A stretch of DNA of 64,000 bases. Source: Fibrobacter sp. UWB2 (GTDB lineage: Bacteria > Fibrobacterota > Fibrobacteria > Fibrobacterales > Fibrobacteraceae). Of the stretch, positions 3,851-15,428 are shown piece by piece. The translations under genes were made by a program, and so were the position numbers. Location of the stretch: contig NZ_MWQK01000002.1 in NCBI RefSeq assembly GCF_002210425.1, forward strand, positions 62,001 through 126,000. Direction: 5' to 3'. The notes under the pieces were generated by a model, which saw nothing but the letters and a program-made list of their open reading frames with translations, was not told the origin of the DNA and ran no database searches. Every line of letters starts with the position of its first letter. Position 1 is the first letter of the stretch.

Positions 3851-3876
3851 TCTTTTGCAACAGAGTGGGGCTTGTG

Positions 3877-6186
3877 ATGTTTCGTAAAATCCTGGGAATT
3901 GCGCTTTCTGCGTTGTTGTTTGTCGTTGCTGCCTGTTCCGATGACAATCCTTCGGTTTCGTTAGTCGAGCCTATTGCAGATGGAAGTAGCTCGTCTGTAG
4001 ATGCTCTTTCGAGCGACGGTGGCGTAATCGAGTCTTCTTCGACTGGTGCTGTAAAAACGGCTCGCTATAACTTGTGGGACCCTGCTGTAGACTACAAGGT
4101 CAATACGGGTGACGATAGCACGGGCTTTTGGCGAACCTTTGGCGATAACTTGTTTGGTCTTCAGGGTGAATCGAAGATTATTTTCCCGGTCGAACTTGAA
4201 AATTCGTCGACGCCGCTTTCTTCTGTCTTTAAACATTGCGATGGCCTTTGTGGGTCGATTGAACCCGATTACTTAATGATCGGTCCCTGGGCGGGTGTTG
4301 AAATCCCGCTTGCCAAGGACGGCGCTACGGCTGATGTCACGTCTTGGGGAGGTGTCTGTGTCACTTACGAATCTGATTATTTGATAAGCATTTATTTAAA
4401 GGTTCAAGTTGATGGGTTTGATTCTAATAGCTTAACGAAGCCTTTTGAAGCGTATCCCGCTAATTATTTAAGTGAAACGACTATTGGGGAATCTCCTGCG
4501 CCTACGCTTTTCAATTTGTTCAGTACAAACGAAGTTCAAACTGAATGCATGAAATGGAGCAGTTTTGATGTTAGCTCTTGGGCGAAAAATAGTGGCTCTT
4601 CGCAGATTAGCAAAGTTTATACTGGGGATGAGGCGGCTAAAGAAATTCAGTCTATCATGTTTGTAATTCAAAGCCGTGGTGATGACGAAAATAAGGTGTT
4701 TAATATTAAGGGTATTAGTACTTATGATCCAAGTAATGCCACACAAGGCTGGAAGTATCCGGATGAAAAATTTTACGAGAGATTCCCTGTCGATGATACA
4801 TTGACTTGTTTGTGGAAAGGGGGCTTGGGCGATACCCATGTGAATACGGGCTATAATGATCGTGATGAATACGCGGGTATGCTGGTGCCTTTTGATGAGT
4901 CTCCTGCTAACTCTTATGCTCATATTGAATACCCTGCGTATCCGTCGATGGAGTTTGGACCTTATAAGTATGAAAGCGTTATTTGGGAGTGTTCCGGTTT
5001 TTGTGGAACAATGGACTTTTATTTGGATGGGTCTGAATACGCTGTTGGTGGAATCACCTTTAACATTGCTGGCTCTACTGATGATGATTATGTTTTTGAA
5101 GATGTTCAAGACTGGGGCGGTGTTTGTGTCACTTATTTTTCCGAAAAGGATGCTTACCTGAACTTTGTTGTAAAAGATGTTCCTTACGAGAATTCTCCTA
5201 AGGTCGCATTGCCGAAGTCCAATGAACTTGTCGAAAGGTGCTTTACCTGGAATGAAATCGCACCGAATGATCCCAATATGGGGCGTGCGGTAGGTGCTAT
5301 CCAGTTTGCTGTAAAGGGTACTGTAGATTATGAAAAATTCAGATTTAATTTGGCAGGTATAGGGAAATATTCCGTTAATGGCGCGTGCTCTTTTGAAACG
5401 CCTGTTATCACCCCGAAAAGCTCGTCTTCGGCGTGGATCCGTAGCAGTTCAAGTGTCGATACAACCAAGCACCATAAACTTTATGTTGAAGAACAGTGCA
5501 TATTGCTCACGGATCTGTGGAATTTCGTTGGCAGTGTTTTTACGGGGTTTGGTGGTACCTTGAATGAAAAAGTTGGCCGTTGGTATAAAATTGAAGATGC
5601 TAGCGATGAACATAAGTCTAACTTTACGCAGCCTTTGAATGAACAGGAATTGATAAACCACGAAAAATTTGATAATGGTGGCGTTGAATTCCCTGATTCC
5701 TGTGGAGGTGCTAAACGTACAGGTTTGTACGATGGCGTTTGTGGAACTGCCGAATTCAAGGATGATTATTTTGCGGGACTCGGATTCTATGTAGCCGGAT
5801 TTGATCACGATGATGGCACTTTGCTTAGCGGCGATGTGAAAAAATCTTGGGGCGGCATTTGCGTGACTTATGCTAGTGAAGCTGATATTGATGTCGTGAT
5901 GAATAGCACTGGTGTTCATGATATTAGTCAAATACCCAAGTTGCCTAAGGCGACGCTTCCCAAGAGTTCTGAAGCGGTAACGAGTTGCTTAACGTGGGAC
6001 GAATTTAAGTCAGATGATGGAAAACTTGTTGACCCCAAGAATCTCACGACCGTGAACTTTGTGGTTTATGGGGAAAAAGGAACCCGGAAAAAATTCAATA
6101 TTCACGGGCTCGGCAAGTATGCAACTTACGCGGAATATGATTACAGTTTAAAGTGCCCTATAGAAGAACATTTCGTCACTGAATAA
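3877..6186 (+). CDS. Modular lipoprotein with three paralogous domains
   Basis: This 769-residue paralogue of the preceding gene has lipobox VVAAC, a serine-rich linker and three modules with the same landmarks (LW....NTG, GLCG, W.GVC(V)TY.SE, C..W.E, F(N/R)..GI.KY). Modules 2 and 3 are joined by a second Ser-rich linker (SSSSAWIRSSSS, near residue 515). Module 2 is almost identical in DNA to module 2 of the next gene (for example 5161-5220 against 7561-7620), which shows recent duplication. I chose ATG 3877 because GAGTGGGG precedes it; the upstream GTG codons lie in or before that site. No function is recognised beyond a likely surface-exposed binding protein. Confidence 0.75.
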   Translation: MFRKILGIALSALLFVVAACSDDNPSVSLVEPIADGSSSSVDALSSDGGVIESSSTGAVKTARYNLWDPAVDYKVNTGDDSTGFWRTFGDNLFGLQGESKIIFPVELENSSTPLSSVFKHCDGLCGSIEPDYLMIGPWAGVEIPLAKDGATADVTSWGGVCVTYESDYLISIYLKVQVDGFDSNSLTKPFEAYPANYLSETTIGESPAPTLFNLFSTNEVQTECMKWSSFDVSSWAKNSGSSQISKVYTGDEAAKEIQSIMFVIQSRGDDENKVFNIKGISTYDPSNATQGWKYPDEKFYERFPVDDTLTCLWKGGLGDTHVNTGYNDRDEYAGMLVPFDESPANSYAHIEYPAYPSMEFGPYKYESVIWECSGFCGTMDFYLDGSEYAVGGITFNIAGSTDDDYVFEDVQDWGGVCVTYFSEKDAYLNFVVKDVPYENSPKVALPKSNELVERCFTWNEIAPNDPNMGRAVGAIQFAVKGTVDYEKFRFNLAGIGKYSVNGACSFETPVITPKSSSSAWIRSSSSVDTTKHHKLYVEEQCILLTDLWNFVGSVFTGFGGTLNEKVGRWYKIEDASDEHKSNFTQPLNEQELINHEKFDNGGVEFPDSCGGAKRTGLYDGVCGTAEFKDDYFAGLGFYVAGFDHDDGTLLSGDVKKSWGGICVTYASEADIDVVMNSTGVHDISQIPKLPKATLPKSSEAVTSCLTWDEFKSDDGKLVDPKNLTTVNFVVYGEKGTRKKFNIHGLGKYATYAEYDYSLKCPIEEHFVTE

Positions 6187-6194
6187 TTGGATTT

Positions 6195-6223
6195 TGTCAT
6201 ACCCGCCACCGAGCGGGTTTCTC
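6195..6223. repeat. Short palindromic intergenic repeat (ACCCGC/GCGGGT type)
   Basis: The sequence is TGTCATACCCGCC, ACCGA, then GCGGGTTTCTC. It is a variant of the element seen complete at 59576-59605 and split at 7856-7907. The inverted repeat is followed by a T-rich stretch, so it may also terminate the preceding gene. Confidence 0.6.
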
Positions 6224-6278
6224 TTTTAAAAGAAATATTATATATTACTATCTATAGATAAAATAAAAGGAGCGCGTT

Positions 6279-7814
6279 GTGTTTAGGAACATTCTTGGGG
6301 GCGTGATTTCGATTTTGTTCTTTGTCGTTGCCGCCTGTTCCGATGACAATCCTTCGATTCCGATTGCTGAGCCTATCGCAGAAGGGAGTAGCTCGTCTGT
6401 AGATGCTCTTTTGAGTGACGGTGTCGTAGTCGAGTCTTCTTCGAGTGGTGCGGTAAAGGCTCGCCGCTATAACTTGTGGGACCCTGCCGTAGATTACAAG
6501 GTCAAAACGGGTGACGATAGCACGGGCTTTTGGCGAACCTTTGGCGATACCTTGTTTGGTCAACAGGGTAAATCGAAGATTGTTTTCCCTGTCGAACTCG
6601 AAAAATCATCGACTCCTTTGGCCTCTGTTTTTAAACATTGTGATGGCTTATGCGGATCGCTTGAACCCGATACTTCAGTGTATAGACCTTGGGCTGGTTT
6701 TGAAATCCAACTAGCCAGGGACGGCGCTACGGCGGATGTCTCGTCTTGGGGTGGTATCTGTATCACGTATGAATCTGATTATTGGATGTATGTCCATTTG
6801 AAAGTTAATGTTGATGGAATTGATTCCAATAGTGAAATATGGCCGTTCATGGCATATCCTGAGGGCTTTCTAGAAAGAACGACGCATGGTGGTTCTGAAC
6901 CCACACTTCGTAATTTGTATTGGATTGACGAGCCTAAAACTGTATGTGCAGAATGGAGCCGTTTTGATATAACTAAATGGAAATATTCCGAATATTCAAT
7001 CAATCGCCAGGTTTATACGGGAGAAGAGGCCGCAAAGGAAATCCTGTCTATTATGTTTGAGGTTAAAAGCCAAGGTGACGACGATAAGAAAACTTTCAAT
7101 ATTAGGGGAATCAGTACTTATAAACCGGACGAATTTTCGTTTGATTGGGAATTTCCTAATGATGGCGTCAATGTGGATTTTCCTGACGATGATTCCTTGA
7201 CTTGTCTGTGGAAAGGGGTTGACGGAACCCATGTGAAAACAGGCTATAATGACCGTGACAGGTACGCGGGCTGGTTGGAACATTTTGAGGCGTCTCCTGG
7301 TGACGCTTATGCTCATATTGAATTCCCGGTGGAACTGTCAGGGGAGTTTGGATATGAAGTGTATGGTGGCCTTATTGAGGATTGTCTCGGTTTTTGTGGG
7401 ACGATGGATTTTACTCTGGAAGGGGCTGAATACGCTGTTGGCGGGGTCTCGTTTAATATTGCGGGCTTTAATGATGGCGATTACGTTTTCGAAGATATTC
7501 AAGACTGGGGCGGTGTTTGCGTCACTTACTATTCCGAAAAGGATGCTTACTTGAACTTTGTTGTAAAAGATGTTCCTTACGAGAACTCTCCTAAGGTCGC
7601 TTTGCCAAAGTCCAGTGGGCTTGTCGAAAAGTGCTTTACTTGGAATGAAATTGCGCCAAATGACCCTGATATGGGGCGAGCTGTTGGTGCTATCCAGTTT
7701 GCTATAAAGGGCACTGTAGATCAAGAACAATGCAGATTTAATTTGGCAGGTATTGGGAAATATTCCACTAATGGCGCGTGCTCTTTTGAAACGCGTGAAA
7801 TCACTTCCAAGTAG
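6279..7814 (+). CDS. Modular lipoprotein with two paralogous domains
   Basis: This 511-residue paralogue starts at GTG 6279 behind a good AAGGAG site 7 bases upstream. The signal peptide ends in VVAAC and is followed by SDDNPS, exactly as in the preceding gene. Two modules follow after a short Ser-rich linker. Residues in the first 100 positions and in the second module are nearly the same as in the preceding gene, whereas the end of module 1 and the start of module 2 are diverged. The third module of its neighbour is absent here. A strong terminator ends the cluster. Surface ligand binding is the best guess; no enzyme motif is visible. Confidence 0.75.
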   Translation: MFRNILGGVISILFFVVAACSDDNPSIPIAEPIAEGSSSSVDALLSDGVVVESSSSGAVKARRYNLWDPAVDYKVKTGDDSTGFWRTFGDTLFGQQGKSKIVFPVELEKSSTPLASVFKHCDGLCGSLEPDTSVYRPWAGFEIQLARDGATADVSSWGGICITYESDYWMYVHLKVNVDGIDSNSEIWPFMAYPEGFLERTTHGGSEPTLRNLYWIDEPKTVCAEWSRFDITKWKYSEYSINRQVYTGEEAAKEILSIMFEVKSQGDDDKKTFNIRGISTYKPDEFSFDWEFPNDGVNVDFPDDDSLTCLWKGVDGTHVKTGYNDRDRYAGWLEHFEASPGDAYAHIEFPVELSGEFGYEVYGGLIEDCLGFCGTMDFTLEGAEYAVGGVSFNIAGFNDGDYVFEDIQDWGGVCVTYYSEKDAYLNFVVKDVPYENSPKVALPKSSGLVEKCFTWNEIAPNDPDMGRAVGAIQFAIKGTVDQEQCRFNLAGIGKYSTNGACSFETREITSK

Positions 7815-8646: not shown

Positions 8647-9519
8647 TTAATAACTCAACTTTTCCGTTGTTCCTTCGCGGAAGCTTCCGAGGCGATAAAT
8701 GAAGTCGGTGTACTGCTGCAATTCCTTGAGCGCTTCAACGACATTCGGATCCTTCGGATTGCCTTCGAACGAAAGGTGGAAAATGTATTCCCACGGGCGG
8801 TCCGGATGCGGACGGCTCTCGATACGCGTGAGGTTCAACTTGCGCTTGGCAAAGCAACCTAGCGCTTCGTACAAAGCGCCAGACTTGCTGGAATCGCTCA
8901 ACATCAACAGAAGCGTCGTCTTGATGGGCGGCTTGCCTGTTTCGTTGGCCTTGAAGTCCGGCAATTCAATTGCGGTTTTCTGAATCGCGTAAAAGCGCGT
9001 GAAGTTCACGCCCGGCAAATTTTCGAGCCCTTGCTTTAGAATGTCAAGACCGTAGAACTTGGCGGCATATGCGCTTGCGATTGCACCGATGTGTTTGTCG
9101 CCGCGCTTCGCGATTTCTTCGGCGCTGCCTGCGGTATCGTAAAAAGCGGTACTCTTGATGTTCGGGTGCTGTCCGAAAAAGCGGCTGCACTGGGCGAGTC
9201 CCTGCGGGTGGCTCAGGACTTCGGTAAGGTCTTCGAGCTTTGTGCCCGGCAATGCGCAGAGCGTATGTTCAATCTGCAACTTGACTTCGGCGACAATCGG
9301 ATGGCGCCACTTGTAAAGCAAGTCGTAGTTGTCGTAAATGGAACCCGCGGTCGAGTTTTCTATAGGGATGGCGCCTCCGTCAACGACACCTGTTTCAATG
9401 CCCTGGAAAATTTGTTCGAACGTGTCCATCGGCACGACTTCGATATCGTTTCCGAACAGGTGGTAGGCGGCACTTTCGCTATAGGCCCCGCGACGGCCCT
9501 GGAATGCTATCTTTTTCAT
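8647..9519 (-). CDS. pheA: Prephenate dehydratase
   Basis: This enzyme converts prephenate to phenylpyruvate in phenylalanine synthesis. The 290-residue protein has the catalytic domain in the first about 185 residues (FQGRRGAYSESA, PIENSTAGSI, FYDTAGSAEEIA). A C-terminal ACT domain follows (about residues 195-280) with the ESRP(H)PDRPWEY phenylalanine-binding motif. It is monofunctional: no chorismate mutase domain is fused. It lies 17 bases after the NlpC/P60 lipoprotein gene and 12 bases before rph, so it is probably co-transcribed with both. Feedback control by phenylalanine through the ACT domain is expected from the family. Confidence 0.95.
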   Translation of the reverse strand: MKKIAFQGRRGAYSESAAYHLFGNDIEVVPMDTFEQIFQGIETGVVDGGAIPIENSTAGSIYDNYDLLYKWRHPIVAEVKLQIEHTLCALPGTKLEDLTEVLSHPQGLAQCSRFFGQHPNIKSTAFYDTAGSAEEIAKRGDKHIGAIASAYAAKFYGLDILKQGLENLPGVNFTRFYAIQKTAIELPDFKANETGKPPIKTTLLLMLSDSSKSGALYEALGCFAKRKLNLTRIESRPHPDRPWEYIFHLSFEGNPKDPNVVEALKELQQYTDFIYRLGSFREGTTEKLSY

Positions 9520-9536
9520 GTGAAAAAAGATAGTAA

Positions 9537-10361
9537 TTACTTAAATCGTCTTGCGCCCTTGTATTTGGATGACCAATAGTTATCGTCCATGGAGGTAATC
9601 ACCACGCCCTTACTCGTGCTGGCGTGAATGAAACGGTTCCCCTTTAAGTAAATGCCGACGTGGCTGATTTTCCAGAAGTTCCCGAAAAACACGAGATCGC
9701 CTTCTTGCAGTTTTGTCCGCTTGATGGAATAGCCGCGACCATCGTCATAAATACGTTGTGCGTTATGGTCTAGTGCAATGTTGTAAAAGCCTTTGTAGAC
9801 TTGCATCACATAGCCGGAACAGTCCGTCTTCTTTTTGCTGGCGGCGCCATAAACGTATTTGGCACCAAGCCATTCCTTGGCGTACTTTTCAAGGTTTGTA
9901 GGCTTTGATGTGGGTTTCGCCTGTTTTGTAGTTTTTTTGGCGGTTTCAGTTTTTGTTGCGGTTGATGTCTTTGAGGCGGGTTCTTTTTTGACGGAATCTT
10001 TTTTTGTGGAATCAATTTTTACGATTGAGTCTTTCCGAACTACCGTCGAATCAGTCTTGCTTTGTGTTTTAGACAAGTGCGCCGTAGAGTCTTTTGTGTT
10101 TGCGCTTTTTTCAGCGGAGGAAGTAAGCGAGTTTGTGCTTGTTGTTGACGCAATAGCAAGTCTTTCTTCTTGCACAAGTTCTTCTTGCGGGTCTACGGCG
10201 GTGGTATCAACGGGTTCAGGAGTTGTGGTGGCCACCCTGTATCGCTTGTAGGTACCGCTCTTTCTGTCGTATCCTGGGCGTACGGGAAAAGCGCAGTTGG
10301 CAAGTAACACCAAACTGCATACCACTAGAATTCCCGTAAAAATGCGACTTTTGAAAGCCAT
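9537..10361 (-). CDS. NlpC/P60 family cell-wall hydrolase lipoprotein
   Basis: The 274-residue protein has lipobox LLANC. A low-complexity Ser/Thr/Lys-rich spacer (about residues 45-155, with repeated KDS and TKT) would span the periplasm or cell wall. The C-terminal NlpC/P60 domain (about residues 160-274) carries the catalytic Cys in KTDCSGYVM, the His in SHVGIYL and a third polar position at FIHAST. The family cleaves peptidoglycan stem peptides. It is the first gene of the nlpC-pheA-rph row. The strongly lysine-rich spacer may bind wall polymers; that is inference. Confidence 0.88.
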   Translation of the reverse strand: MAFKSRIFTGILVVCSLVLLANCAFPVRPGYDRKSGTYKRYRVATTTPEPVDTTAVDPQEELVQEERLAIASTTSTNSLTSSAEKSANTKDSTAHLSKTQSKTDSTVVRKDSIVKIDSTKKDSVKKEPASKTSTATKTETAKKTTKQAKPTSKPTNLEKYAKEWLGAKYVYGAASKKKTDCSGYVMQVYKGFYNIALDHNAQRIYDDGRGYSIKRTKLQEGDLVFFGNFWKISHVGIYLKGNRFIHASTSKGVVITSMDDNYWSSKYKGARRFK

Positions 10362-10542
10362 CGATGGAAATTTAATTAATTACACCTTTCAAGAACAGAT
10401 TTTAAAGGTGTTTTGACGGAATGTGTAATAAATATCATAGTCTAGGATAGCATTTGTGTGCGCGTTCCCTTCAATAATCTGGTATTTATGGTTATATCTA
10501 TATCTTATAACTACCTATGATAAAATAGTATATCTCTATGCC

Positions 10543-10571
10543 TTGACATTGCAGAAGGTATATTCTAATTT
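10543..10571 (+). promoter_or_regulatory. Putative sigma-70-type promoter of the SDR/CysK-like/LanC-like operon
   Basis: A perfect TTGACA lies at 10543-10548. Seventeen bases later is TAATTT, a weak -10 box, and a TATTCT alternative is nearby. It would give a leader of roughly 255 bases before the first large gene. Confidence 0.4.
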
Positions 10572-10574
10572 TAT

Positions 10575-10832
10575 AACATACAAGAACGATAGGGAATTGA
10601 AAAGGTCTTTCACTTCACCTTGGCTTTCGAAGGAGCATATATGTGTAGCGACTGTCGAATGCCGGAAGGCATTCTGAAAATAAACTAACCAGAAGCCAGT
10701 TGTCCTTTGGGCTTCAACGGTTATAGAAAAGAAGTCAAAGGAATCACAATAAATCAGGATAACATGTGTCAAGGTTTCGAATGAAACCGCTTTTACCGGT
10801 GTATCCGCAAAAACCAAAAAAGGAATTTCAGA
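10575..10832 (+). other. Long structured leader without a large gene
   Basis: The 471-base gap between two divergent genes (10362-10832) holds no convincing large gene. The leader part contains a mini-ORF (10641-10688), a perfect 7-bp hairpin GAATGCC-GGAA-GGCATTC at 10657-10674, and a second possible hairpin GAAGCC/GGCTTC at 10692-10715. The second overlaps the alternative pairing GTTG/CAAC (10699-10702 with 10715-10718). Two mutually exclusive folds next to a mini-ORF are typical of attenuation or riboswitch leaders, but I cannot match a known class. AAAGGAA at 10828 precedes the SDR start. Confidence 0.4.
10641..10688 (+). CDS. Candidate 15-residue leader peptide with two cysteines
   Basis: ATG at 10641 is preceded by an excellent GAAGGAG site with 5-6 bases spacing. 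The frame encodes MCSDCRMPEGILKIN and then TAA. Two of the first five codons are Cys (TGT), and the downstream operon contains a cysteine-synthase-like enzyme, so a Cys-sensing attenuator peptide is plausible. The hairpin at 10657-10674 overlaps the second half of the ORF. It could instead be chance: 15 codons is too short for statistics. It is separate from the 73-codon frame that also crosses the region, which lacks a ribosome site. Confidence 0.35.
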   Translation: MCSDCRMPEGILKIN

Positions 10833-11627
10833 ATGAGTGAAAAGAAAGTTATCGTTATTACAGGTGCCGCACAGGGAATTGGCCTTGCCGCTGTCAAGAA
10901 GTATGTCAAGGAAGGTTGGGCTGTTGCCGCAACGGATATCAAAAAAGAACAGCTCGATGGCGAAGTAGCGAAGCTCACCGCTCAAGGTGCTGATGTGACC
11001 GCATATGAGCTGGATGTCGCTAATTACAAACAAGGTCAAGAAGTCGTTGCTCAAGTCGTTAAGAAGTACGGACGCATTGATGCCTTGTTCAATGACGCAG
11101 GCATTGTTGGCCATCGCAAAAACGTGCTTAGCTTTGACCCGGAAGAAATCAAACAGGCCGAAAATGTGAACCTTTGGGGTAGTCTCTATTTGATTCAGCA
11201 TGTAGGTCGCGTCTTTATTGAAAAGGGCATCAAGGGAGCTATTGTGAACGTTTCTTCGTTTGTCGCCTCCTTTGCAGAATGGACTCCGTTTGCTTATGGC
11301 ATTTCAAAGACCGCGGTCGATGGGCTTACGCGTGCAGCAGCTTTCCATCTAGGGCGCTATGGCATTCGCGTGAACTCTGTTGCTCCGGGTTTTACCAAGA
11401 CCGAAATGGCTATTAAACACGACTATTCGGATCCGAAGCTCCGTAAGGCCGCTGAAGACCGTAGCATTTTAAACCGTTGGATTGAACCTGAAGAAATTGC
11501 AAATGCGGTATTTTTCCTCACGAGCGATCAGGCTTCTGCAATTACAGGCATCAAGCTCCCTGTAGATGCTGGTTATACCGCCACCAAGGAAGACAACAAG
11601 GTCAATATTTACGGTGATGCTGAATAA
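10833..11627 (+). CDS. Short-chain dehydrogenase/reductase
   Basis: This 264-residue classical SDR is a NAD(P)-dependent oxidoreductase of unknown substrate. It shows the Rossmann TGAAQGIG motif (residues 10-17), an Asp after beta-2 (TDIKKE) that favours NAD, the NDAG motif (an Asp variant of NNAG), the catalytic Ser in NVSS, and Tyr/Lys in YGISK, followed by the PGF segment. It is first in an operon with a PLP enzyme (53 bases downstream) and a LanC-like protein. The shared operon suggests one small-molecule or peptide pathway; the reaction cannot be read from the sequence. Confidence 0.85.
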   Translation: MSEKKVIVITGAAQGIGLAAVKKYVKEGWAVAATDIKKEQLDGEVAKLTAQGADVTAYELDVANYKQGQEVVAQVVKKYGRIDALFNDAGIVGHRKNVLSFDPEEIKQAENVNLWGSLYLIQHVGRVFIEKGIKGAIVNVSSFVASFAEWTPFAYGISKTAVDGLTRAAAFHLGRYGIRVNSVAPGFTKTEMAIKHDYSDPKLRKAAEDRSILNRWIEPEEIANAVFFLTSDQASAITGIKLPVDAGYTATKEDNKVNIYGDAE

Positions 11628-11680
11628 AATAATCTAATCCATTAACAAATTAAAATTTTAACAAAAAAGGATTCTCAAAC

Positions 11681-12694
11681 ATGTCTAAAATTCATAAGTC
11701 TATTGCTGAACTCGTTGGTAACACTCCCCTTGTTGAACTGACTAATTACGAATCTAAGTACGGCCTCAAAGCGCACATTATCGGTAAACTCGAATTCTTG
11801 AATCCGACTGGCTCTGTGAAAGACCGCCTTGCTCTTGCCCTTATCCGTGATGGCGAAAAGAAGGGCGCTATCAAAAAAGGTGATACGTTGATTGACGTGA
11901 CGAGTGGAAATACAGGTATTGCGCTTGCGGGTATTGGTCACGCTCTTGGTTACGAATATGTCCCTTATCTTGAACCCGGTACGACGATTGAACGTGTTCA
12001 GATTTTTGAAGGCTACGGTCTCGATTTGCAATCTTTCTATGACATTAAGGAAGTGGCCGACTTTGAAAAGAAGGGCCTTGTGCTCGATGATCTGATTGCG
12101 GGTATGGAACGCCTTGCCAAGGAAAAGGGCCAGTATTACACGGGCCAGACTCTGAACAACGCCAACCAGGAATATCATTACCAGACAACAGGTCCTGAAA
12201 TTTGGAACGATACGGATGGCCATGTGGATTACTTTGTTGCCATGGGCGGCACTGCGGGTACTATCGTAGGTACGGGCCGCTACCTTCGCGAAAAGAATCC
12301 CAACGTGAAAATCATTGGCGTGCAGGCGGCTCCGACTTCTCGACCGGACAATCCTGATTTTACGGGACACATTGTCGATGGTACGCTCCCGCTTGGCCGT
12401 GTTGATGAATCTTTGGTGCCGACGATTATCAAGGACAACCGCAATAACGGTTTTGAATTTGATGAAATCATTGACATCAAGGCCGAAGAAGCTTACGAGA
12501 CCGCTCAGGAAACCGCAAAGACTGATGGTCTCTTCCTTGGAACTTCGGCGGCTGCAGCTCTCACTGCTGCAATCCAAATCGCAAAACGCCCCGAAGCGGC
12601 TGGCAAGAACATTGTGGTGATTTACGCCGATAACGGTTACAAGTATCTCTCCACGGATTTGTACAAGAGAAAGAAGAAAAGTGAGGCTGTGTAA
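11681..12694 (+). CDS. Cysteine-synthase-like PLP enzyme (fold type II)
   Basis: The 337-residue protein belongs to the CysK/cystathionine beta-synthase group. The N-terminal ELVGNTPLVEL, the PLP lysine Lys47 in NPTGSVKDR and the TSGNTGIALA substrate loop are clear, and a GGTAGTIVGTGRYL phosphate loop is present. The region normally reading QF.NPAN is diverged to QTLNNAN, and the final loop is GTSAAAAL rather than G.S.GA. So O-acetylserine may not be the substrate; other beta-substitution or beta-elimination reactions (for example a thioether or other amino-acid derivative) are possible. Its stop overlaps the LanC-like start by one base (TAATG), which indicates coupling. Confidence 0.85.
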   Translation: MSKIHKSIAELVGNTPLVELTNYESKYGLKAHIIGKLEFLNPTGSVKDRLALALIRDGEKKGAIKKGDTLIDVTSGNTGIALAGIGHALGYEYVPYLEPGTTIERVQIFEGYGLDLQSFYDIKEVADFEKKGLVLDDLIAGMERLAKEKGQYYTGQTLNNANQEYHYQTTGPEIWNDTDGHVDYFVAMGGTAGTIVGTGRYLREKNPNVKIIGVQAAPTSRPDNPDFTGHIVDGTLPLGRVDESLVPTIIKDNRNNGFEFDEIIDIKAEEAYETAQETAKTDGLFLGTSAAAALTAAIQIAKRPEAAGKNIVVIYADNGYKYLSTDLYKRKKKSEAV

Positions 12695-14112
12695 TGAAAT
12701 TAAACTTTGTTCAGAATCTAGATTTTAGTGTCTCCAAAAATGGAAATTATCTCGAAGCGGTTTTGCAGATTGTCAAGTATCTCAAGACAAACGAGGTCGT
12801 CACGCCGCATGGCAAGTACTGGAAAGCAAGCCCGGAACCGGGAAATGAGTACAAGGGCGACCTGATGATTACGCCTAAGGGCCTTTATGCCGGCTCGGCT
12901 GGCATTGGCCAATTCTTCTTGCAACTTTACGATGTCACTCAGGACGAAGTGTATTTGCAAGAGGCAAAGGATGCCGCAGAATACATCCTCAACACGTACG
13001 AAGGCAAACAGTTCTTTGATAATGTGTTGAACGGAAACGACGGCGGTGTCTGGCCGGTCAAGGGCTGGGGAACGAGTGTCTATGCGTCACCGGCGGGGCA
13101 GGCAATTTTCGTGGAACAGCTTTACGAACATACGGGCGATCCGCGTTACCGCGAATTCCTGATCCGCACAGCTGACGATTCCATCGCTGCGGGTGTTGAT
13201 GATGGCAAAACGCTCCACTGGAGTACCGAAGCCGACCTGATGGCCGATGGATCTTACGCGTTTTTCTTCCTTTACGTCTATCGTAAGACTAAAGACAAGA
13301 AGTATCTAGAAGCGGCCAAAAAAGTTGTCGCTTTTACAGACACGAGAATTGTCCATGCCAAGGAGGGCGGCATTTACTACAAGAACGTGGACTTGACGCT
13401 TGTTGGCTGGAAATCCAAGGAATCTGTGTTCCCTAACTTTAGCCATGGTGCTGCTGGATCCGCTTTCTTGAATGTTCTCTTGTACGAAGAGACTAAGGAA
13501 AAGGCTTATCTCGACAAGGCGAATGAAGTTGTCAAGTTTCTCTCGGCAATCGTTGAGGGCGATGAAAATGGAGCTTTGATTCCGTATCTCTACAATCCGG
13601 AAAAGGGGCGTTTCCATGACTTCTATTACCTTTCGACTTGCCATGGTCCCGTGGGTACAACACTTTTGTTCCGCAAACTTTTTGATGTGACTCAGAACAA
13701 AGAAAACTTGGAATGGGTGGACTTGCTCACTAAGGGAATCCTCAAGACCGGCGCTCCACTCAAGCATACTCCGGGTTATTGGAATAGTTATTGCCTTTGC
13801 TGCGGAGCCCCTGGCGTTCTCGCTCATTTCGTGAAGACGGCAGAAGTACTGAATGATGAATCCTACATCGAACAGGCGAAGCTCACTGCAGACAAGCTTC
13901 TCGGTGATTCTTGGAACGATGACAAGGGACGTCGCTGGTTTGCGGCTTGGACTCGCAAATTGCCGGGTTTCGTAGAAACCTACACGGGGCTTTACGATGG
14001 CGCGGCTGGTGTCGGTACAGCACTGCTTTATCTCTACGCTCACGAAAAGGGCATAAAGATAAAAACGGAAACGGTAGAATATCTCTTCTTGAATCCGGTA
14101 AAAGCTGCTTAG
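12694..14112 (+). CDS. LanC-like zinc protein with CCG motif
   Basis: The 472-residue protein has the alpha/alpha-barrel repeat pattern of lanthionine-synthetase C-like proteins: SHGAAGS with His251, TCHGPVG with Cys316, LCCGAPG with Cys369-Cys370, and a last YDGAAG turn. In NisC-type LanC the zinc ligands are Cys, Cys, His (CHG). Here the third ligand position is Cys, giving CCG as in the promiscuous ProcM group of LanM enzymes. No LanB or LanM dehydratase domain and no evident precursor peptide are nearby, so this is not a classical lantibiotic locus. Addition of a thiol to an acceptor is inferred from the fold and the neighbouring PLP and SDR genes. Confidence 0.75.
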   Translation: MKLNFVQNLDFSVSKNGNYLEAVLQIVKYLKTNEVVTPHGKYWKASPEPGNEYKGDLMITPKGLYAGSAGIGQFFLQLYDVTQDEVYLQEAKDAAEYILNTYEGKQFFDNVLNGNDGGVWPVKGWGTSVYASPAGQAIFVEQLYEHTGDPRYREFLIRTADDSIAAGVDDGKTLHWSTEADLMADGSYAFFFLYVYRKTKDKKYLEAAKKVVAFTDTRIVHAKEGGIYYKNVDLTLVGWKSKESVFPNFSHGAAGSAFLNVLLYEETKEKAYLDKANEVVKFLSAIVEGDENGALIPYLYNPEKGRFHDFYYLSTCHGPVGTTLLFRKLFDVTQNKENLEWVDLLTKGILKTGAPLKHTPGYWNSYCLCCGAPGVLAHFVKTAEVLNDESYIEQAKLTADKLLGDSWNDDKGRRWFAAWTRKLPGFVETYTGLYDGAAGVGTALLYLYAHEKGIKIKTETVEYLFLNPVKAA

Positions 14113-14134
14113 AATTTAAAACATAGAATCCGGA

Positions 14135-14175
14135 AGCGTTTTTGCAGAAAAGGGAATCTGCAAAAACGCTTTTTT
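14135..14175 (+). terminator. Strong terminator after LanC-like gene
   Basis: A perfect 14-bp stem AGCGTTTTTGCAGA/TCTGCAAAAACGCT is followed by T5. It ends the SDR/PLP/LanC operon, facing the convergent bioB. Confidence 0.95.
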
Positions 14176-14179
14176 ATTT

Positions 14180-15154
14180 TTAGCCGATAAATCCGTGCGG
14201 CTTGAATCCGAGACCTTTCACAAGCTCAAAATCTTTGCAGCTGTTTACGCCAGCGGTGGTGAGCATGTCGTCCGTGATGGCGGCATTTGCGCCGCTCTTG
14301 AAAGCTCGCTTGCCGTCGTCGCCCAAAACGCCGCGACCGCCCGCAAGACGGATGAACGCCTTCGGGTTGATGAATCGGTAAATCGCCACAATGCGGCAGA
14401 ACTCGTCGTTCGTGAGCTTCGGGAGCTTTTCGTACGGCGTTCCGGGAATCGCGTTCAGCACATTTACCGGAGTGGACTTGACGCCGAGTTTACGCAAATC
14501 CAGGCACATGTCGATTCGGTCTTCCATCGTTTCGCCAAGGCCCATGATGCCGCCACTGCAAATTTCGAGGCCTGCTGCAAGAGCGTTCTGGAGTGCTCCA
14601 ATCTTATCGTCGTAGGTGTGCGTCGTGCAAACGTCCGGGAAGTGACGACGGTATGTTTCCAGGTTGTTGTGGAAGCGGGTGAGGCCTGCTTCCTTGAGCT
14701 TGTCGAACTGTTCCCTGTTCAAGAGTCCTGCCGAAAGGCAAATCGAAAGCTTCGTCTCTTTTTTCAGGCGGCGGAGCGCTTCGCTAATCTGCTCCACGTC
14801 GCGGTTCGAGAGCGTACGGCCCGAAGTCACGATGGAGTAACGCGGGATACCTGCCGCTTCTTTCTTCTTGGCGTCGGCGACAATCTCGTCGGCGCTGAGC
14901 AACTTGTATTCGGGAGCGCCGGTGTGGTAATAACTGCTCTGGGCGCAGTACTTGCAGTTTTCGGAGCAGCGACCGCTGCGGGCGTTCACGATGGAACAAA
15001 AATCAAAGTCGTTGCCGTGGAATTTTTCGCGGATTTCGTCAGCGGCTTTCGTGAGTTCGTCGGGGTCTTCACTTAAAAGTTTGATAGCCTCTTCGCGTGT
15101 AATCTCATAACCTTCATTTAAAACTTTATTTTTCAGTTCTTGAACGAAAGACAT
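14180..15154 (-). CDS. bioB: Biotin synthase
   Basis: This radical SAM enzyme inserts sulphur into dethiobiotin. The 324-residue protein has the radical-SAM cluster cysteines Cys63, Cys67 and Cys70 in CSENCKYC. Further BioB marks are CAQSSYY, TSGRT, HNNLET, ICSGGIMGLGE and the C-terminal RLAGGR segment, the last carrying the Arg ligand of the auxiliary cluster. No other bio genes are adjacent. It is transcribed away from a 274-base AT-rich gap that it shares with a divergent lipoprotein gene; I see no clear operator there. Confidence 0.95.
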   Translation of the reverse strand: MSFVQELKNKVLNEGYEITREEAIKLLSEDPDELTKAADEIREKFHGNDFDFCSIVNARSGRCSENCKYCAQSSYYHTGAPEYKLLSADEIVADAKKKEAAGIPRYSIVTSGRTLSNRDVEQISEALRRLKKETKLSICLSAGLLNREQFDKLKEAGLTRFHNNLETYRRHFPDVCTTHTYDDKIGALQNALAAGLEICSGGIMGLGETMEDRIDMCLDLRKLGVKSTPVNVLNAIPGTPYEKLPKLTNDEFCRIVAIYRFINPKAFIRLAGGRGVLGDDGKRAFKSGANAAITDDMLTTAGVNSCKDFELVKGLGFKPHGFIG

Positions 15155-15428
15155 TTCTCACTCCAGTTTGATACTTTTTTCGGAGCCAAATATAGAAAAA
15201 TACCTGCTTGCGTGGTAGACCGCCATTTTGACTTCAATTTCTACTTCGCTACTGCATTCGCTTTACGCATTTATCTTTTTGCGGTTCTGAAAAACGCTTC
15301 AAATCAAGTGTCGTTTGAAAACTTCTTCCTTGTAAAGTTTCTTGTCTTTTGTATGAAATTAGTGTATATTTTGAGAAATCCCTATGCTTCGGCAGTGAAG
15401 ATAAGGGTTTGTAAAACTAAAGGTCTAT

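Follow-up and report, generated by a model that had tools for sequence, protein, structure and literature searches.

Introduction

LanC-type enzymes have been described in lanthipeptide biosynthesis and in the addition of glutathione in eukaryotes. With S-adenosylhomocysteine hydrolase and LuxS, a ketone is made first and a thiol is then eliminated from the beta position, and methylthio-alkane reductase is a C-S bond-cleaving sulfur-salvage enzyme. For LanC and LanCL enzymes the forward direction is the known one, and LanC-type enzymes have also been recorded to run in the retro-Michael direction (PMC9934072); a CCG motif signifies three Cys ligands (PMC10783134, PMC12328550). Here we analyse an operon of Fibrobacter sp. 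UWB2, lying in a 64,000-nucleotide stretch of contig NZ_MWQK01000002.1 (the window), that encodes a CCG-type LanC-like protein together with a short-chain dehydrogenase (SDR) and a cysteine-synthase-like enzyme. Our literature search found no account covering this set, whether of a LanC-like protein with cysteine synthase and SDR, of LanC genes outside lanthipeptides, or of Fibrobacter nitrogenase-like sulfur genes. An earlier note, made from the letters of the window, had proposed such an operon behind a Cys-containing leader and had suggested an undescribed thiol or thioether chemistry on a small molecule or peptide.

Results

The operon and its enzymes

The operon runs from a promoter (~10524-10577) through a Cys leader, the SDR, the PLP enzyme and the LanC-like gene to a terminator, and the three reading frames and their families were confirmed:

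10833-11627, + strand: SDR1, classical short-chain dehydrogenase, 264 aa (profile, alignment)
11681-12694, + strand: CysK1, diverged fold-type-II PLP enzyme, 337 aa (profile, alignment)
12694-14112, + strand: LanC1, CCG-type LanC-like protein, 472 aa (profile, alignment, AlphaFold, Foldseek)
14132-14173, + strand: intrinsic terminator with a 17-pair (17-bp) stem (sequence)

SDR1 matches PF13561 (E 1e-62, 212 bits), and its alignment has the TGxxxGIG motif and S-Y-K triad of a classical SDR. Its beta-2 strand ends in Asp, as in the NAD type, and oxidation would therefore be favoured. CysK1 matches PF00291 (PALP; E 5e-59, 200 bits) and shares with cysteine synthase A (CysK) the type II fold, a GSVKDR lysine motif that aligns with that of E. 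coli CysK, the TSGNTG loop and HYxTTGPEIW; it differs in having GTAGT rather than GTGGT as its phosphate loop, in insertions, and in a TIGR01139 score of 236-237 bits, below the equivalog cut-off of 350.95. In a genome search, two other genes elsewhere, both true CysK, scored 461 and 437 bits against 236 for CysK1, which rules out that CysK1 is the housekeeping CysK, the finding that the earlier note had said would undo its proposal.

LanC1 matches PF05147 (E 1e-27, 97 bits versus a gathering score of 23.2). Its AlphaFold model (pLDDT 82, pTM 0.88) adopts the alpha/alpha barrel fold of LanC/LanCL, with LanCL2 (6wq1) and LanCL1 as the best Foldseek matches (E 4e-11). Cys316, Cys369 and Cys370, which the earlier note had singled out, do not vary among the 14 aligned homologues (Cys367 hardly does) and are the predicted zinc ligands. 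Equivalents of LanCL1 Cys276/His277, Cys322 and His219 are likewise conserved; by analogy with LanCL1, His251 is predicted to be the proton donor and His317, the counterpart of LanCL1 His277, to stabilise the enolate (PMC9934072). His251, within an NFSHG motif, is invariant in the homologue alignment, and this His is missing from the Mesobacillus and Nonomuraea homologues; LanC2, a second LanC encoded by relatives, has Gly at the position of His317. LanC1 thus resembles NisC, LanCL1 and LanCL2 in fold, zinc ligand positions and His proton donor, but its third ligand is Cys (CCG) and not His, its identity to them in structural alignment is ~14-18%, and it is encoded without lanthipeptide genes in a sulfur-metabolism operon. 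With ProcM-type cyclases it shares the CCG motif, whereas it is a stand-alone protein of 472 aa with neither dehydratase domain nor precursor.

Conservation of the gene set

Wherever the contig is long enough for a check, CysK1 and LanC1 are neighbours, so the separation in relatives that would have undone the earlier note's proposal was not seen for this pair, and the adjacency is kept at 78-85% identity across different genomic locations. In every carrier that could be checked, SDR1 belongs to the operon or has its promoter. It leads the set in the window, as had been noted, but in two relatives (G069 and G096) it is transcribed as a unit of its own from the same promoter. The one-base overlap of the PLP and LanC genes is likewise present in the window but not conserved, since relatives have gaps of ~30-65 bp. 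Relatives additionally encode the second LanC, a second SDR, a PatB C-S lyase (435 bits versus a cut-off of 340), CGL and an ABC transporter; in one (G142), CGL, PatB, SDR1, CysK1 and LanC1 lie on one contig with an NMT1-type ABC transporter. SDR2 adjoins LanC2 in G066 and G096, which suggests that SDR and LanC act as a pair.

The distribution is patchy, with a LanC match in 12 of the 168 phylum genomes, and one contig search with LanC returned two Fibrobacter MAGs only. Among LanC relatives outside the family (a Mesobacillus plasmid, G173 and G225), no adjacent SDR or CysK was found within the neighbourhoods read; the Nonomuraea relative, whose record is unannotated, stands outside this comparison. 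We regard the operon as an accessory module of sulfur salvage with a patchy distribution.

Promoter, leader and proposed regulon

Upstream of SDR1 lie the following elements:

10524-10545, + strand: upstream promoter element AATAGTAT-N9-CCTTG, a likely activator site overlapping the -35 hexamer (conservation)
10543-10571, + strand: -35 TTGACA and Fibrobacter-type -10 TAATTT (read from sequence, aligned with relatives)
10577-10593, + strand: candidate LysR-type box CATAC-AAGAACG-ATAGG (position of a perfect box in relatives)
10641-10688, + strand: 15-codon Cys-containing leader ORF MCSDCRMPEGILKIN with Shine-Dalgarno GAAGGAG (conservation)
10657-10674, + strand: hairpin GAATGCC-GGAA-GGCATTC within the leader ORF (alignment of relatives)
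10692-10715, + strand: hairpin GAAGCC...GGCTTC with TCCTT in its loop (covariation)

The upstream element occurs in the same register before metY, SDR1 and CysK1 in relatives, and the bare pattern was matched in 52 of the 111 family genomes by pattern search. The promoter at 10543-10571 was missed by a generic sigma-70 scan. The candidate box has one mismatch to the palindrome CCTAY-N7-RTAGG, which is perfect at the same position in relatives; one-mismatch matches in the window (7 found, 4.4 expected) are not significant alone. LysR-type boxes (T-N11-A) are found at the lysR gene, which lies at 233155-234099 of contig C5, at two nitrogenase-like clusters, and at the CGL-PatB-LanC2 and SDR/CysK operons. 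The D subunit of one nitrogenase-like cluster matches MarD of methylthio-alkane reductase 9FMG (E 3e-183). Our operon shares with that system (MarBHDK) a related regulatory box, a sulfur-salvage setting and the theme of C-S cleavage, but consists of other enzymes, and MarBHDK lies on another contig (C5) of the same genome.

The leader proposed by the earlier note is borne out: it is conserved in relatives upstream of SDR, CysK1 and metY, with Cys5 invariant and Cys2 not, and is therefore more than a chance reading frame. The hairpin within it has a GNRA loop in all relatives and precludes pairing of 10623-10630 with 10655-10662. The loop of the second hairpin reads GTCCTT in all but one of the 13 aligned leaders, and four of its six pairs have changes on both sides, a count that none of 500 shuffles reached. 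A search of 9400-15300 against Rfam with E up to 1 gave no match; the leader is therefore not a curated RNA family.

Fibrobacter metY, encoding O-acetylhomoserine sulfhydrylase, carries the same upstream promoter and leader as the operon. On the strength of promoter, leader and gene company, the operon very probably belongs to a proposed Fibrobacter LysR sulfur-assimilation regulon. The earlier note's idea that a small molecule undergoes thiol or thioether chemistry fits, but the operon is no stand-alone exotic pathway. Given the apparent co-regulation with sulfur-salvage genes, the role of the LanC enzyme is probably to make or break C-S bonds of a small nutrient, not to build an antibiotic.

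Discussion

The new result is a regulatory one, read from sequence comparison: a promoter and leader common to metY and this operon, and a LysR-type box that recurs at the lysR gene, the methylthio-alkane-reductase-like clusters and the CGL/PatB/LanC2 operons. As the best explanation of the whole we favour, with a probability of about 0.4, a sulfur-salvage operon in which SDR oxidation, LanC thiol expulsion and CysK-like capture follow one another. A LysR-type activator would drive transcription of the operon and the Cys-codon leader common to metY would tune it, so that expression would be expected when cysteine or sulfur is short. The NAD-dependent SDR would oxidise an alcohol of an imported thioether, so that a carbonyl now stands beta to the sulfur. 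A thia-Michael reaction would then be reversed by the zinc LanC-like enzyme, with the thiolate held on zinc and then expelled while His251 and His317 handle the enolate. The CysK-like enzyme, with PatB/CGL-type partners encoded elsewhere, may transfer the freed sulfur or thiol to O-acetylserine, leading to cysteine and methionine, and the transsulfuration enzymes would share in this capture. The logic alone, making a ketone and then losing a thiol by beta-elimination, is that of S-adenosylhomocysteine hydrolase and LuxS, to which there is no sequence relation, and here it would be divided hypothetically between two proteins. That the operon substitutes for those enzymes is a weakened idea: LuxS is absent, but the genome already has an S-adenosylhomocysteine hydrolase, and S-adenosylhomocysteine is thus an unlikely substrate. 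The forward direction is the one best known for LanC-family enzymes, and sequence cannot set the direction; the direction and substrate that we infer for LanC1 are accordingly put forward tentatively, at rather less than even odds, and the specific proposal of a two-protein C-S lyase, in which NAD-dependent SDR and zinc LanC-type enzyme free thiols from an organic thioether, is more doubtful.

The same genes could instead work in the forward direction. SDR1 would make or clear an enone or enal, CysK1 would provide the thiol amino acid, and LanC1 would add cysteine or some other thiol to the enone or enal. This would serve electrophile detoxification or small thioether synthesis in the style of LanCL and glutathione, PatB and CGL recycling the conjugates. 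The LanCL-like active site of LanC1 is intact, the direction is the known one for LanC and LanCL (PMC9934072), and the C-S lyase and CGL partners of relatives could cleave conjugates; nevertheless, co-control with sulfur-salvage genes such as metY suits gaining sulfur over spending it, and SDR1 appears to be of the NAD type whereas NADPH would be the usual cofactor of a detoxifying reductase, so we consider this rather unlikely. A scheme confined to sulfur amino acids is improbable to a greater degree. In it CysK1 and LanC1 would make or break cystathionine-, lanthionine- or S-alkylcysteine-type compounds, all within the reach of CysK-, CGL- and PatB-like partners, and LanC1 would be either a lyase or a zinc thiol carrier, while the SDR would deal with some unrelated by-product; the last point sits poorly with SDR1 sharing the operon or promoter in all checkable carriers and with LanC2 being paired with its own SDR2 in two genomes.

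The CCG motif, found in the promiscuous ProcM-type cyclases, would also suit a pathway in which some unrecognised enzyme dehydrates a ribosomal peptide and LanC1 cyclises it. The earlier note had stated that no dehydratase or precursor is present. Searches of the genome for LanB and LanM gave no matches, but control genomes were equally silent and these negatives are hence weak. There is no precursor-like ORF, the sole conserved small ORF being the regulatory leader that also precedes metY, and the neighbours are sulfur amino-acid enzymes. The operon is probably not lanthipeptide machinery, and such cryptic peptide modification is very improbable. Mere chance proximity of unrelated metabolic genes, to which the patchy distribution would lend itself, is the least probable reading of all, given an adjacency of CysK1 and LanC1 that survives in different locations and an SDR1 that retains the same promoter when separate.

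If the proposal of a two-protein C-S lyase is true, it would give an anaerobe a new sulfur source, and LanC1 would be the first member of its family to serve in primary sulfur nutrition, under a new Cys-leader element. A conserved LanC member, predicted to be zinc-competent and under apparent sulfur-salvage control, points to a part for this fold in everyday nutrition and suggests an anaerobic route, open to testing, by which sulfur could be taken from thioethers. Fibrobacter is a major plant-fibre degrader of herbivore guts, and the leader and promoter provide a handle on its sulfur sensing.

Operon structure and shared control signals

The three genes brought together in the earlier note are real and correctly placed; the first codes for a classical SDR, the second for a fold-type-II PLP enzyme and the third for a LanC-like protein. 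Ahead of them lie a promoter, a leader ORF of 15 codons and a pair of short hairpins, and behind them a strong terminator.

10641-10688, Cys-containing leader ORF
10657-10674 and 10692-10715, hairpins
10833-11627 (+), SDR1, the SDR
11681-12694 (+), CysK1, the PLP enzyme
12694-14112 (+), LanC1, the LanC-like protein
14132-14173, terminator

The one-base overlap said to couple the last two genes exists in the window but is not conserved in relatives. Each enzyme falls in a known superfamily; no description of their combination, their placement in a sulfur regulon or the leader was found in the literature searched, whose coverage was incomplete.

The strongest clue to function is regulation. A promoter element, AATAGTAT-N9-CCTTG, and near the transcription start a palindromic box, CCTAY-N7-RTAGG (a LysR-type T-N11-A site), recur in many Fibrobacter genomes, as does the leader; by pattern count the element was matched in 52 of 111 family genomes, a reversed control pattern being far rarer. 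Element, box and leader stand upstream of metY (O-acetylhomoserine sulfhydrylase), element and box without leader upstream of a gene for a 184-aa protein, and element with a variant box, judged by eye, and no leader upstream of a ThiF-like gene. Further copies of the box lie before the lysR gene, before operons of CGL, PatB and LanC2 (a second LanC-like paralogue), and before each of the two nitrogenase-like clusters in this genome; the D subunit of one cluster matches methylthio-alkane reductase MarD (9FMG, E 3e-183), and the other cluster matches MarD more weakly (308 bits). The window's copy of the box has one mismatch and alone is not significant, and was assigned because its register matches relatives, not on its own score.

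Another contig of this genome carries a sulfur island (G000:C5:198000-236000; loci L140, L059) with metY, CysK, MnmA-like and CGL-like genes, two nitrogenase-like H/D/K sets (one near to MarD of 9FMG, the other less so), more CysK-like genes, a rhodanese-TusA-DsrE fusion, SsuA/NMT1-type ABC genes, PatB and LysR. The 184-residue protein (MARVHLKQPNEL...) lies under the sulfur promoter in several Fibrobacter genomes (L106, L116, L117, L124, L128) and had no Pfam match at E 1e-5.

The leader

The leader (consensus MxSDCRMPxGILKTN; window 10641-10715; L105, L107, L108, L110, L114, L115, L118, L123) has nine distinct coding versions, all with the same frame, start and stop, in which Cys5, Arg6, Met7, Pro8 and Gly10 are invariant; position 2 may be Cys, Ser, Ile or Val, and the first Cys is therefore not essential. 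In every version the hairpin within the ORF has a GNRA loop, despite a codon change (Glu, Lys, Arg), and bases just 5' of the Shine-Dalgarno could pair alternatively with the same arm. In the second hairpin four of six pairs show changes on both sides, as reached by none of 500 shuffles (best of all slides). An Rfam search matched no family to this region. Leader, GNRA hairpin and covarying hairpin precede both metY and SDR/CysK genes. We regard the leader as a candidate new cis-regulatory element of Fibrobacter, for which cysteine-responsive attenuation would be the natural guess.

CysK1 and LanC1

As the earlier note supposed, CysK1 is not the housekeeping cysteine synthase: two other genes of the same genome, at 461 and 437 bits, exceed the TIGR01139 cut-off, and after them come one gene at 321, two relatives at about 258 and CysK1 at 236 bits. 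CysK1 shares the catalytic-lysine and TSGNTG motifs of CysK, but has GTAGT for GTGGT and carries insertions.

The closest named matches of LanC1 are from Fibrobacter sp. MAGs. The cysteines proposed to bind zinc, Cys316, Cys369 and Cys370, are the same in every one of the 14 aligned homologues, and Cys367 is nearly invariant. In alignment with LanCL1, Cys316-His317 corresponds to Cys276-His277, Cys369-Cys370 to Cys322-His323, and His251 (in NFSHG) to His219, the proton donor (PMC9934072); LanC1 also shares the CCG motif reported for ProcM-type cyclases (PMC10783134, PMC12328550). LanCL2 and LanCL1 rank among the best solved-structure matches of its AlphaFold model (pLDDT 82, pTM 0.88). From these correspondences, motif and model, LanC1 is very likely a zinc enzyme of the LanC family, the metal being predicted. 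In LanC2, about 40% identical, the Cys ligands and the NFSHG His are retained, and Gly stands at the His317 position.

Other LanC-like proteins have a CxCCG motif (L057 9956-11284; L058 8001-9293): in Mesobacillus they lack the catalytic His and, in the neighbourhood read, an adjacent SDR or CysK, and lie beside a GH1 enzyme; a Nonomuraea relative shares the motif.

Distribution and gene company

Of the phylum's 168 genomes, 12 have a LanC match (one of them marginal, E 7e-4, and one a contig-edge fragment), which makes the trait accessory. CysK1 (at least 82% identity) was found in 7 of 392 relatives, and the co-occurrence expected earlier holds for this pair, LanC1 lying directly downstream in all seven; three more LanC1 matches lie at contig edges. 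That an SDR leads the set is true of G000 (the window's genome), G104, G142 and G066, where SDR1 is upstream of CysK1, but not of G069 and G096, where SDR1 is a separate unit that keeps the same promoter and, in G069, the leader too. Near-identical promoter-leader cassettes precede SDR1 (L021 8116) and CysK1 (L022 4471) in G069, which suggests that its operon was split by duplication of the control region.

Relatives add LanC2, SDR2 (a second SDR), a CGL/CGS-type enzyme and a C-S lyase of the PatB family, whose 435 bits exceed the cut-off of 340; G142 has CGL-PatB-SDR1-CysK1-LanC1 together, next to an NMT1-type ABC transporter. In the window bioB adjoins LanC1 (12694-15154), and bioD-bioA lies nearby in two relatives (L021 9393-12940; L019 4791-14998), a proximity perhaps due to chance, though biotin is a sulfur vitamin. 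Elsewhere in the window (3865-7814) two neighbouring ORFs, paralogous and lipoprotein-like, have linkers rich in Ser; the duplication is seen in relative G104 too (L025).

Proposed function

The gene set, its conservation, the motifs and the shared control signals are directly established. We treat SDR and LanC as a putative functional couple because SDR2 pairs with LanC2, the two adjoining in G066 and G096. The main rival to release of a thiol is the forward direction, in which a thiol would be added to an electrophile; for LanC chemistry running backward a precedent is cited in PMC9934072. Under thiol release, which we consider the likeliest reading, sulfur shortage would induce the operon and an organic sulfur compound would be imported; SDR1, for which we propose NAD-linked oxidation on the basis of an Asp at the end of beta-2, would place a carbonyl beta to the sulfur, LanC1 would eliminate the thiol with zinc assistance, and CysK1 and transsulfuration enzymes would capture it.
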